In this document: positions 54,664-58,258 of the stretch, piece by piece | Layout: the number at the start of each line of letters is the position of its first letter | Position numbering within the stretch: position 1 is the stretch's first letter | Assembly (NCBI RefSeq): GCF_009377195.2 | Contig: NZ_VJXX01000001.1 | Span: 186,001-250,000 of the forward strand | Origin: Arthrobacter bussei | GTDB lineage: Bacteria > Actinomycetota > Actinomycetes > Actinomycetales > Micrococcaceae | Direction: 5' to 3' | DNA: 64,000 nucleotides | Translations under genes and position numbers: made by a program | The notes under the pieces: generated by a model | The model's database searches: none | Told to the model about the DNA's origin: nothing | What the model saw: the letters and a program-made list of their open reading frames with translations, nothing else

Positions 54664-54708
54664 GATACCGCGGGCACTCCCTCCCCACAAGAGGGTGCCC
54701 GCGGTATC
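54664..54708 (-). terminator. Rho-independent terminator of the peptide gene
   Basis: A perfect 14-bp stem (GATACCGCGGGCAC / GTGCCCGCGGTATC), followed on the minus strand by CCCCTTTTAAGG. It is 61 bp past the stop codon of the small secreted peptide gene. Confidence 0.85.
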
Positions 54709-54768
54709 AGGTCTACTCTGCAGACTCGCTCCGCTGTCCGGTGAGGATCAGGGAAAGAGGAAGTGTGC

Positions 54769-54909
54769 TCAGTAGGGCCAGTTGTTGACGCGGTCGGTCG
54801 ACGAGACAGGGGCAACGGCGCCCGACTTGGCGGGGGCCGCCGTGGCGACCGCCGCGGTGCCGGAGACGAGGAACACGGAGAGCATGAGGGCGGAGACGAG
54901 GCGCTTCAT
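54769..54909 (-). CDS. 46-residue secreted peptide, candidate pheromone
   Basis: A 46-codon reading frame from ATG 54909, preceded by an AAGGA site at 8-nt spacing. It starts MKRLVSALMLSVFLVSGTAA, a classic signal peptide. Probable cleavage after ATA leaves about 22 mature residues ending STDRVNNWPY. It has its own strong terminator and is divergent from the TPR gene 166 bp away. Size, secretion signal, short aromatic C-terminus and a TPR neighbour match peptide-pheromone/receptor modules. No homologue is recognised, and a role as signal is inference. Confidence 0.75.
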   Translation of the reverse strand: MKRLVSALMLSVFLVSGTAAVATAAPAKSGAVAPVSSTDRVNNWPY

Positions 54910-54943
54910 AGTAGACATCCTTCGGGGTGATCACAGTGGTTGA

Positions 54944-54973
54944 AGCAGGTGCCTGTGCATACCACAGCCTGCT
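54944..54973. promoter_or_regulatory. Imperfect inverted repeat between peptide and TPR genes
   Basis: AGCAGG-(tgc)-CTGTG-(N5)-CACAG-CCTGCT, 11 paired positions with a 3-nt bulge. It lies 35-64 bp upstream of the peptide ATG and 102 bp upstream of the TPR ATG. It may be an operator or the peptide's leader hairpin. A TACGAT -10-like box for the peptide transcript lies just beyond it at about 54981-54986. Confidence 0.45.
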
Positions 54974-55075
54974 CTGAAAACATCGTAAGCCACTCCAGTC
55001 ACTTTAGTAACAGTTTCTGCGACAAAACTGCCCATTTCCTTGGTTTCGCCGGTTTCGATCGAATGAGGGACCAAT

Positions 55076-56158
55076 ATGGTGGAAACAAAGAGTTGGAATC
55101 GATGGCGGGAGTCGATCGTGGCGTTGCAGGACGACCGAGGCGAACAGCTCATGATCGAGCTCCAGGCACGCGACGCCTGGAACCAGCGCGACTTCGTACG
55201 CGCCCAGGAATTGGCCGAGCGGGGTGCGGATCTGGCAGTGGCCTGCAATGACGAGGCCGCCTGGTGGAACGCCACGTTCCTCGTGTCCGAGGCGCTGCGG
55301 AAGCAGGGCCGGATGCAGGACTCGCTGGAAACTGCCGCGACGCTCGAGGAGCACCCCCTGACTCATGCGTCGATCGCCCTGAGCGCGAGGGTCGCCACAC
55401 TCAAGTCCTTCGCCCTCCAGGGCACCGGCGCCCTGGGTCCTGCTGTCGCGGCCGCTCGCACGGCGGTGCAGCTGGCCGGTGACGAGCCGGGGCAGAAGTC
55501 GATCAGGATGGAGGCCCAGAATGCCCTCATCGCGTCCCTCGCGGACAGCGACCAGCTCGACGGCGCGTGGCAGGAGAGTCAGGTGCTTGCAGACCTCCTC
55601 GCGACCGAGCCCCCCACCCAGACCACGGGTCTCGGCTACTGGGCCATCGGCAATGTGGCGTTCCTCCTCAAGCACATCGACGAGGCGGTGGCCTACCACC
55701 GCCTCGCTGCAGAGCACCTCTCCCCCAGCAACGACCTGGCCCTGTGGGCCCGATTCAATCGTGCCTCGGCTGCCTTGAGACTCACCGCCGCTGTGACCGG
55801 TCCCGAGACGCTGGAGTGCATCGAGCGGGCCGAGCTCGCCAGTTCGATCGTCGGTGGCTCAGAGCGGGACCGGCTGGAACTGAAGCTCACCCGCGCGCAG
55901 TGGCTCGTGCTCACCGGTCAGTACGACCTTGCGGTCGATCAGCTGGCATCCATCATCGAGCATCAGCATCTCCTCGCGTCACACACCGCGGCCCAGGCGC
56001 ATTTCCTGCTCGGCGAGGCTCTGCTGTCCAACCGCGAGGTCGAGCCGGCGCGCGAGCACCTGACGATCAGTGAGGGGTTGTTCCTGCAGTCCGGCGCCGA
56101 GGATCGCGCGGCGAAGGCCCGCGGTCTACTCCAGGGCATGGACGCTGCCTTGGGCTGA
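55076..56158 (+). CDS. TPR-repeat protein, candidate peptide receptor
   Basis: 360 residues of almost entirely helical TPR-like repeats (for example AWNQRDFVRAQELAERGADLA, AFLLKHIDEAVAYHRLAAEH, ALLSNREVEPAREHLTISEG). There is no N-terminal helix-turn-helix, signal peptide or transmembrane segment. The ATG at 55076 follows GAGGGA with 5-nt spacing, and a stop codon lies in frame just before it. TPR-only intracellular proteins paired with a short secreted peptide resemble Rap/Phr of the RRNPP class. The function is inferred from layout. Confidence 0.75.
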   Translation: MVETKSWNRWRESIVALQDDRGEQLMIELQARDAWNQRDFVRAQELAERGADLAVACNDEAAWWNATFLVSEALRKQGRMQDSLETAATLEEHPLTHASIALSARVATLKSFALQGTGALGPAVAAARTAVQLAGDEPGQKSIRMEAQNALIASLADSDQLDGAWQESQVLADLLATEPPTQTTGLGYWAIGNVAFLLKHIDEAVAYHRLAAEHLSPSNDLALWARFNRASAALRLTAAVTGPETLECIERAELASSIVGGSERDRLELKLTRAQWLVLTGQYDLAVDQLASIIEHQHLLASHTAAQAHFLLGEALLSNREVEPAREHLTISEGLFLQSGAEDRAAKARGLLQGMDAALG

Positions 56159-56683: not shown

Positions 56684-56687
56684 ATGA
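56560..56687 (+). other. Possible upstream ORF coupled to the GGDEF-EAL gene
   Basis: A 42-codon frame starts with ATG at 56560, behind a GGGGGTAGGG stretch, and ends in TGA at 56685-56687, overlapping the ATG of the next gene (ATGA). The c-di-GMP gene itself lacks a good ribosome-binding site, so translational coupling through this leader is possible. The predicted peptide is basic and unconserved as far as can be judged. Confidence 0.3.
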
Positions 56688-58258
56688 ATGCCGACCACAA
56701 GGACCCCCGGCTCGCCATGCTGGTCGAGAGCATCGTCCGGCTCTCGCGGGGTGAGCTCAGCAGCCGTATCGAACCCTCGAGCGCTCGTGACGAGGTCGAC
56801 GCCGTCATCACCGGGGTGAACCTCCTCGCCGAGGAGCTCGAGCAGGTGTACGAGCAGTTCGAGAAGCGCGTGGAGAGCCGCACCGCGATGCTGCGCCAGG
56901 CACATCTCGACATGATGAAGATGGCCATGTCGGACGCCCTCACGGGTCTGGCCAACCGGGTGGCCCTCATGGACGCCATCGAGGAAGCGCTCGGCCAGGC
57001 GGCGAACGGCGCGCCCCCTCCGGCCCTCCTCCTGCTGGACCTCGACAGCTTCAAGAACGTCAACGACCGCTTCGGCCATGACGCGGGTGACCGCGTACTC
57101 CAGGAGGTCGCCACGCGGCTCAACGGCGTGGTGCGCGAGAGCGACCTGGTCGCCAGGCTCGGCGGCGACGAGTTCGCCGTCCTGCTGCCCGCGGCCACCA
57201 TGGACATCGCCATGCAGGTGGCCCGCAGGGCGCTCGAAGTACTCGGCGAGCAGATCCGGCTCGACTCCCTCTACGTGCACTCCCGCGCCAGCATCGGGGT
57301 GCGGCTCGGGACGGCTGGGCAGACCGCCGAGGAACTCCTCCTGGACGCCGATACCGCCATGTACGCCGCGAAGCGGGAGGGCAGGAGCATCATCAAGGTG
57401 TTCGAGCCCGTCATGCTCTACTCCCGGCAGCTCCGCAGCCAGATGGCGACGGAGCTGCGCGGGGCGATCAGCGCCGACGAGCTCGTGCTCCACTACCAGC
57501 CCGTCGTCGAACTCGCGACGAACCGCATCCTCGGCGTCGAGGTCCTCGTGCGCTGGCAGCATCCGCTGCGGGGGCTGATCCCGCCCGACACCTTCATCCC
57601 CCTCGCCGAGGAGATCGGCGTCATCCATGATCTCGACCGCTGGGTCATGTCGGCGTCCCTGCGGCAGCTCGCACGATGGCGTGAGGACTTCGACCTCGAC
57701 CCCGATTTCCAGCTGCGGGTCAACCTGTCCGCCGTCGAACTCAAGCAGCTGGACCTCGTGGACCACATCCGCACCCTGCTCCGCGAGCTGCACCTGCCGG
57801 CGCGCAACCTGGTCGTCGAGATCACCGAGACGGCGATCGTCACGCGCGGAGAGGTGGAGATGTACTCGCTGCTGAGCCTCCAGCAGCTCGGCGTCGGCAT
57901 CGAGATCGACGATTTCGGTACGGGCTACTCGTCCATCAGCTATCTGCGGGAGCTACCGGTCAGCATGGTCAAGGTGGATCGTTCCCTGCTCGTCGGGCTG
58001 AACACCAGGGCGGGCCAGCTGGAGTTCGTCGCCGCGATCCTGCAGCTCATCCGTGCGGCCGGGCTCGAGGCCGTGTTCGAGGGCATCGAGACGAGGGAAC
58101 AGGCGGATCAGCTGCGGGCCATGGGCTGTGCCAGCGGCCAGGGCTACTACTTCAGCCGGCCCCTCCCCGCGGACGAGACCGGAACACTGCTCGCCACGAC
58201 CCATTACCTGCGCATCGGCGAAGGGGTCGAGGGCGCCGGGAGCACGCCCGCGCGCTGA
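56684..58258 (+). CDS. GGDEF-EAL c-di-GMP enzyme
   Basis: 524 residues. N-terminal helical/HAMP-like region (1-75), GGDEF domain with LGGDEF (160-164) and an I-site RESD at 151-154, then an EAL domain. The EAL signature is EVL at 286-288, and NLSAVEL, EITETAIV, DDFGTGYSS, KVDRSLL and EGIE residues are all present, so both synthesis and hydrolysis appear intact. No transmembrane helices are seen. It likely sets c-di-GMP levels in the cytoplasm. It is 525 bp downstream of the TPR gene on the same strand. Confidence 0.93.
   Translation: MNADHKDPRLAMLVESIVRLSRGELSSRIEPSSARDEVDAVITGVNLLAEELEQVYEQFEKRVESRTAMLRQAHLDMMKMAMSDALTGLANRVALMDAIEEALGQAANGAPPPALLLLDLDSFKNVNDRFGHDAGDRVLQEVATRLNGVVRESDLVARLGGDEFAVLLPAATMDIAMQVARRALEVLGEQIRLDSLYVHSRASIGVRLGTAGQTAEELLLDADTAMYAAKREGRSIIKVFEPVMLYSRQLRSQMATELRGAISADELVLHYQPVVELATNRILGVEVLVRWQHPLRGLIPPDTFIPLAEEIGVIHDLDRWVMSASLRQLARWREDFDLDPDFQLRVNLSAVELKQLDLVDHIRTLLRELHLPARNLVVEITETAIVTRGEVEMYSLLSLQQLGVGIEIDDFGTGYSSISYLRELPVSMVKVDRSLLVGLNTRAGQLEFVAAILQLIRAAGLEAVFEGIETREQADQLRAMGCASGQGYYFSRPLPADETGTLLATTHYLRIGEGVEGAGSTPAR

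Follow-up and report, generated by a model that had tools for sequence, protein, structure and literature searches.

Does a 46-codon gene of Arthrobacter bussei encode a peptide signal that is read by the tetratricopeptide repeat (TPR) protein encoded divergently beside it? Both genes lie in a stretch of 64,000 nucleotides of this organism (assembly GCF_009377195.2, contig NZ_VJXX01000001.1, positions 186,001 to 250,000, forward strand), referred to here as the window. RRNPP systems, the cell-to-cell signalling type of Bacillus and its relatives, pair TPR receptors with short secreted peptides. In the loci compared below, a predicted exported peptide and a TPR protein form a conserved, covarying combination, which is tied to a GGDEF-EAL protein gene in one branch and to a helix-turn-helix (HTH) domain in others. 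The explanation that fits best, and that we hold with considerable confidence, is an RRNPP-like peptide pheromone with a cytoplasmic TPR receptor in Actinomycetota, the window's receptor belonging to an HTH-less branch that probably controls cyclic di-GMP (c-di-GMP). The pair consists of the following elements, given in positions of the window:

54769–54909, minus strand: predicted pheromone precursor gene, 46 amino acids, MKRLVSALMLSVFLVSGTAAVATAAPAKSGAVAPVSSTDRVNNWPY, start ATG at 54909–54907, stop at 54769
54838–54909, minus strand: predicted Sec signal peptide; cleavage is predicted at an ATA-AP junction, behind residue 24
54918–54922, minus strand: AAGGA, ribosome-binding site of the precursor gene, just 5' of the Met-Lys start in 16 of 20 aligned loci
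54772–54789, minus strand: VNNWPY, the predicted core of the pheromone; all 20 of 20 close homologues in the alignment keep W and P
55076–56158, plus strand: TPR-only predicted receptor, 360 amino acids, divergent from the precursor gene; 346 amino acids if the start is GTG 55118

The small gene agrees with its first-pass annotation as a 46-codon gene with a signal peptide, its own ribosome-binding site and the C-terminus VNNWPY. Its signal sequence is hydrophobic; signal peptides, here and in all other loci, were assigned with a simple filter for hydrophobicity and by visual inspection. The listing of open reading frames (ORFs) offers an alternative ATG three codons upstream; for 18 of the 19 close homologues (L052–L070) the filter began the gene at the equivalent Met-Lys. 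No family match above the cut-off was found for the peptide, and a genome-wide search of the window's genome gave no convincing second copy of the precursor (next best match E 0.22).

The divergent 360-residue TPR-only protein likewise stands as annotated. Pfam yields TPR matches alone, all of them weak and the best (E 0.003) falling short of the Pfam cut-off, the AlphaFold model consists of all-helical repeats (pLDDT 95), and no signal peptide was seen. The GTG at 55118 is a plausible alternative start, since many homologues are 343 to 346 residues long. The locus combines an adjacent small gene for a predicted exported propeptide with its own ribosome-binding site and a predicted cytoplasmic TPR protein whose length lies in the range of 250–500 residues given for RRNPP receptors in the available text of PMC10075063. 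An XRE HTH domain, as in receptors of the PlcR, Rgg and NprR type, was not detected in the protein by Pfam; since related receptors carry one, the window's receptor is assigned to an HTH-less branch. In structure comparison the model aligns with peptide-bound Rap proteins. PlcR and Rgg were not among the matches listed for either model, an absence that proves nothing.

A match to the TPR protein was found in 38 of 38 genomes of the genus searched, the window's own included. From a named genome collection, 80 of 225 matching loci were kept, containing 84 TPR genes, of which three (in L071 and L073 and the first copy in L078) were left out for having less than 750 nt of upstream sequence. All 81 testable TPR genes face, no more than 500 nt away, a divergent ORF that passes the signal-peptide filter; in 80 cases this ORF contains WP after residue 20, compared with 23 of 243 filter-passing ORFs elsewhere in the same loci. 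The pairing of peptide and TPR gene exceeds chance. Conservation of the peptide C-terminus beside the TPR gene, which had been named as the check to be made, is therefore found in the form of the Trp-Pro core. Together with the tandem copies of this core in many species and its covariation with the receptor, it supports the original proposal of an actinobacterial signal/receptor pair, and the precursor and the TPR protein are, judged from these sequence comparisons, very likely peptide and receptor.

Within the genus, the C-terminus reads DR(V/I)xxWP(Y/F/G) in 18 of 20 aligned precursors and DVNRWP(H/S) in the other two; W and P are invariant, and the positions preceding W and following P are variable. 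Precursors of many species contain 2–8 tandem cores, for example two copies of IGWWPN in Paenarthrobacter, three of KVGNWPD in Arthrobacter sp. Soil782, six of IGNWPDPM in Sinomonas susongensis and eight of VGDWPH/VGNWPH in A. rhombi. Moreover, two precursors with different cores (e.g. IDDWPH and GNWPD) occur in five of the six genomes that have tandem TPR genes and both upstream regions. Such a varying and tandemly repeated core has the appearance of a pheromone precursor.

Comparison with Arthrobacter sp. Leaf234 in bins of 100 nt gives an identity of 96–99%, about 97% overall, in the nearby flanking genes (53.8–54.5 and 56.8–57.6 kb), 93–96% in the precursor bins and lower values of 0.74–0.77 in intergenic bins at 54.6, 55.0 and 56.3 kb, the mean over the whole aligned stretches being 93% upstream and 90% downstream. 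The receptor gene (55.1–56.1 kb) is 70.7% identical. Seven codons differ between the two precursors, six of them silently, and the seventh changes N to Y just before WPY. This single core substitution beside a diverged receptor would be a pherotype-like change. A covariation set was formed by 243 locus pairs in which the GGDEF-EAL proteins encoded downstream are more than 85% identical. Receptors are on average 86% identical in pairs with the same core (n = 133; GGDEF-EAL 91%) and 66% in pairs with different cores (n = 110; GGDEF-EAL 89%). Partial Mantel tests with the GGDEF-EAL distance held constant gave r 0.29 (P 0.0016) for 19 loci of the genus clade, r 0.35 (P 0.0024) for 31 Paenarthrobacter-like loci and r 0.58 (P 0.0002) for 56 loci. 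By these measures, core and receptor covary.

The TPR part is fused to an XRE HTH in relatives from Pseudarthrobacter, Sinomonas, A. rhombi and others (HTH_3 E 7e-12 in L123). When 51 receptors were placed in a quick tree, the 25 TPR-only proteins grouped as one clade (SH-aLRT 98) among the HTH-TPR receptors. This is most simply explained by the HTH having been lost once, although the outgroup branches are long. Both kinds of receptor, with different cores, are present in six genomes. The window's genome (G000) itself holds an HTH-TPR paralogue on contig 29 (L051:3339–4565, minus strand). The clade of this paralogue was rejected as a clean negative control: the filter scores 0 of 10 loci, but L043 has a divergent ORF with three copies of IGDWPLGG that the filter missed, which makes 1 of 10.

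Beyond the peptide and TPR genes noticed at first, the conserved unit includes a third gene:

56684–58258, plus strand: gene for a GGDEF-EAL protein, predicted partner or output of the receptor (EAL 3.6e-73, GGDEF 4e-44, HAMP-like N-terminal match 3.9e-6)

A homologue lies downstream on the same strand in 59 of 60 TPR-only loci, the sixtieth (L089) reaching the contig end, and downstream of 0 of 21 HTH-TPR genes. This linkage persists where the other flanks differ, and the GGDEF and E(A/V)L motifs are intact in all 52 proteins examined, the window's included. The distance between the TPR and GGDEF-EAL genes ranges from 33 nt to about 6 kb, with intervening genes in some species; in L083 the two overlap by 4 nt at the receptor stop when the longest GGDEF-EAL ORF is taken. 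In one sub-clade the two are separated by genes for a protein of GH18/CBM type, a glycosyltransferase of family GT2 and a DUF7793 protein, identified by Pfam in L075 (7109–11687), and ORFs that look similar by eye are found in L065, L072 and L094; these genes perhaps point to a polysaccharide, c-di-GMP-linked locus. In L057 (A. agilis UMCV2), the GGDEF-EAL match ends after 486 nt and the usual flanks were not found in the fetched stretch, due either to masked sequence or to a rearrangement.

On balance, the GGDEF-EAL protein is probably the direct output of the receptor. The strongest competing explanation accepts the pair but directs the receptor at a response regulator, the known target of Rap proteins, or at a separate transcription factor such as the contig 29 paralogue, and takes the c-di-GMP gene for a neighbour conserved for other reasons. 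That the paralogue has no peptide gene nearby and that the gap to the GGDEF-EAL gene is so variable, with other genes in between, would be in keeping with it; the presence of this gene beside TPR-only receptors and not beside HTH-TPR receptors, even in different surroundings, argues against it, and we regard it as rather unlikely.

If the pair is a pheromone and its receptor, the 46-residue precursor would be exported by Sec and cut by signal peptidase, as predicted from its sequence. A protease would then free a short C-terminal peptide, (V/I)-(G/N)-x-W-P-x, to judge from conservation and the tandem copies. The peptide may accumulate outside and return via an oligopeptide permease (eight SBP_bac_5, OppA-like, proteins are present), and bind the groove of the TPR receptor; re-import and groove binding are likely. 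The receptor, having no DNA-binding domain, would alter the neighbouring GGDEF-EAL enzyme and thereby c-di-GMP, an effect suggested by the linkage of the two genes, and in turn probably surface polysaccharide or biofilm.

TPR relatives were found at E 1e-10 in 221 of 395 genomes of the window's family, representing 17 of 32 genera (the TPR protein alone being counted); a further locus of this family, L172, has five copies of VGNWPD. A profile of the HTH-TPR proteins matched 15 of 248 genomes of the order at 1e-30 and 10 of 394 genomes of the class at 1e-20, both sets including the window's family. In another family of the order, L174 encodes three copies of GGSWPT and L175 an ORF ending in DTWPA, and two further loci have none. 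Counted by other family, peptide-bearing loci number two of four in f17, one of one in f54, none of two in f53 and none of one, a partial match, in f44. Family f37 is taken to be Streptomycetaceae, because P0121 of Streptomyces roseus is 95% identical to the receptor of L197. Here a receptor match at 1e-40 occurs in 19 of 121 genomes, giving 21 loci. A signal-peptide ORF with WP lies near the receptor in ten of them (L201, L202, L206, L209–L214 and L220), with cores IDWP, IEWP, IGWP or similar in up to five copies, and three others (L203, 748 nt away; L204; L205) have an ORF whose end is DWP or EWP and whose signal peptide is not clear. A WP-ending ORF in L216 was left uncounted as it was taken for a piece of a longer protein.

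The Streptomyces receptor also matches 40 plasmid records, of which seven loci were fetched. Two have a divergent three-copy precursor (L222, L228), one a single-core ORF downstream (L227), two only ORFs without a signal peptide (L223, L224) and two none (L225, L226). Plasmid precursors are annotated as hypothetical proteins (WP_331719352.1, three copies of IDWP; WP_331742133.1, three copies of DIGWP). On the Streptomyces linear plasmids of L222 and L228, the neighbours of the XRE-TPR gene and the three-copy WP precursor are adenylation-domain, P450 or ATP-grasp genes, which makes peptide-controlled natural products possible. Short ORFs upstream of the XRE-TPR gene in L223, L224 and L227 have no signal peptide and contain DDIGWPKR or DGDIGWPT; they may be forms of the signal that do without a leader. 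Carriage of the window's own receptor by phages or plasmids was considered and rejected, as it has no match in either; the Sinomonas HTH-TPR protein has no match in phages.

A second alternative, that the small gene encodes a secreted bacteriocin or other effector, with the TPR protein serving in immunity to it or in its export, is very improbable. Toxin-immunity pairs do show diversifying small secreted peptides and a fast-evolving linked partner, and two consecutive ABC transporter genes lie upstream of the peptide gene of an HTH-TPR locus (L116:1432–5132), with ORFs similar by eye in L081, L110, L123 and L128; these transporters are candidate exporters or chance neighbours. However, no maturation or immunity-type genes were seen among the neighbours examined, in other genera with this type of core the homologous partner bears an XRE HTH, and short tandem cores with spacers, in a peptide without a family match above the cut-off, speak against a bacteriocin. 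Slightly less probable still is that the small ORF encodes a conserved secreted protein with no relation to the TPR gene and is retained by synteny only: both genes do share a conserved neighbourhood in the genus (gltX, FAH, ilvE, leuB), but they stay linked in three or more neighbourhoods (gltX/FAH; Paenarthrobacter-like loci, where peptide, TPR and GGDEF-EAL genes occur together and the fetched stretch yielded no gltX, FAH, ilvE or leuB; purC and purD, which adjoin the HTH-TPR receptor gene of L116) and in other families, and core and receptor covary. Among the loci compared, L053 comes from a record titled Vibrio cholerae strain 35D (WNZI01000017.1) that holds Arthrobacter genes (identity to the window 89% for gltX and 95% for FAH), which marks the assembly as contaminated or wrongly labelled.

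Several observations weigh against the pheromone reading or narrow it. The first of two TPR genes in L074 has no WP peptide, and because many loci are close relatives, the effective number of independent ones is below 81. No peptide lies near the HTH-TPR paralogue of the window's genome and eight of nine other loci of its clade, nor is there a WP peptide at 8 of the 21 receptor loci of Streptomycetaceae. The partial Mantel tests may be too liberal. TPR folds are generic, and TPR proteins without a pheromone role score equal or higher in the structure comparison (APPBP2 27.9, MalT 26.4). In the window the TPR and GGDEF-EAL genes lie 525 nt apart, so that a common transcript is no more than possible. 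Finally, the ratio of nonsynonymous to synonymous substitution rates in the 20 aligned genus precursors is 0.25 in the signal part, 0.46 in the linker and 0.43 in the last nine columns; the core as a whole is therefore not the most constrained part, W and P alone being fixed, and strong purifying selection across the whole core was rejected.

Two further elements flank the precursor gene:

54664–54708, minus strand: intrinsic-terminator-like hairpin 3' of the precursor gene (arms 54664–54682 and 54690–54708), 14-bp perfect stem, weak T run
54982–55012, minus strand: promoter-like conserved block TGTTACTAAAGTGACTGGAGTGGCTTACGAT, 31 bp, with TTACTA-17-TACGAT directed toward the small gene, from an alignment of 20 loci

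The hairpin, followed on the minus strand by CCCCTTTT, is identical in Leaf234 and confirms the perfect 14-bp stem that the first-pass annotation described as a terminator. The inverted repeat placed there between the two genes could not be recovered, none of at least 7 nt being present in 54910–55080. The promoter-like block is kept in most of the 20 aligned loci (GTGRCTGGWGTGG in 17, GTTRC and a second half in 16) and is overlapped by a plus-strand direct repeat of GTCAC (54998–55002) and GTAAC (55007–55011) with n4 spacing and a period of 9. According to the available text of PMC13189361, the mycobacterial MtrA site is a repeat of GTCACAgcg and the Streptomyces site consists of 6-nt units 5 nt apart; the period agrees with the former description and disagrees with the latter. 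The similarity of GTCAC-n4-GTAAC to a mycobacterial-type MtrA site is a lead only toward MtrA control of this promoter.

In the widest interpretation, to which we lean only slightly, Actinomycetota would own a wide class of Trp-Pro, often multi-copy pheromones read by XRE-TPR receptors; one branch of Micrococcaceae would have lost the DNA-binding domain once and become a peptide-gated controller of a c-di-GMP enzyme, and its receptor gene would be exchanged as a pherotype island, accompanied by a change of one residue in the signal. If true, the occurrence of Trp-Pro peptides as a class in Arthrobacter, Sinomonas and Streptomyces would extend peptide communication to a phylum of central importance for soils and for antibiotics, and in the TPR-only branch a population signal would be linked directly to c-di-GMP. 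The copies that lie among biosynthetic genes of Streptomyces could yield elicitors for silent products. As the signal is short and by prediction unmodified, its synthesis and testing are feasible.

No description of an RRNPP-like system in Actinomycetota was found in the literature searched, as judged by titles and the openings of abstracts; subscription papers mostly and preprints wholly lie outside this search, and an earlier description is possible. The texts consulted, PMC10075063 among them, place peptide signalling through intracellular receptors in Bacillota; the large survey reported there scanned Firmicutes and viruses only and calls actinobacterial signals typically small molecules. 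The available text of PMC9765709 does not mention actino or Streptomyces, and in that of PMC4748050 TPR is merely a name in a table of actinobacterial domains. Propeptides with repeated pheromones are known for Phr of Bacillus phages, the nearest described case found (PMC11343458, available text).

Like Rap-Phr of Bacillus, the window's proposed system has an HTH-less TPR receptor adjoining a short propeptide with predicted Sec export, but it differs in its phylum, its Trp-Pro core and its GGDEF-EAL neighbour. Rap proteins possess an N-terminal three-helix bundle before the TPR domain; the window model instead has one long helix (3–36) followed by paired helices, and its best Rap alignments begin at about Rap residue 39–47. 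The HTH-TPR relatives of Pseudarthrobacter, Sinomonas and Streptomyces resemble PlcR-PapR, NprR-NprX, Rgg-SHP and AimR-AimP in combining XRE HTH and TPR beside an exported peptide, often divergently, whereas the window's protein lacks the HTH and all belong to another phylum. When compared with the PDB, the HTH-TPR profile of Micrococcaceae matched PlcR (E 1.7e-5) and ComR through the HTH only, with no RRNPP match in the TPR part. Multi-copy signal precursors are also known from the yeast alpha-factor type, which shares with the present precursors several signal copies with short spacers in one exported protein; there the receptor is a G-protein-coupled receptor, here an intracellular TPR protein is proposed, and no dibasic sites were noticed by eye. 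In the pherotypes of Agr and ComQXPA, signal and receptor diverge jointly within otherwise near-identical genome stretches. The same joint divergence in near-identical surroundings is seen here, with the difference that neither a histidine kinase receptor nor a peptide-modifying gene was seen beside the window's pair.
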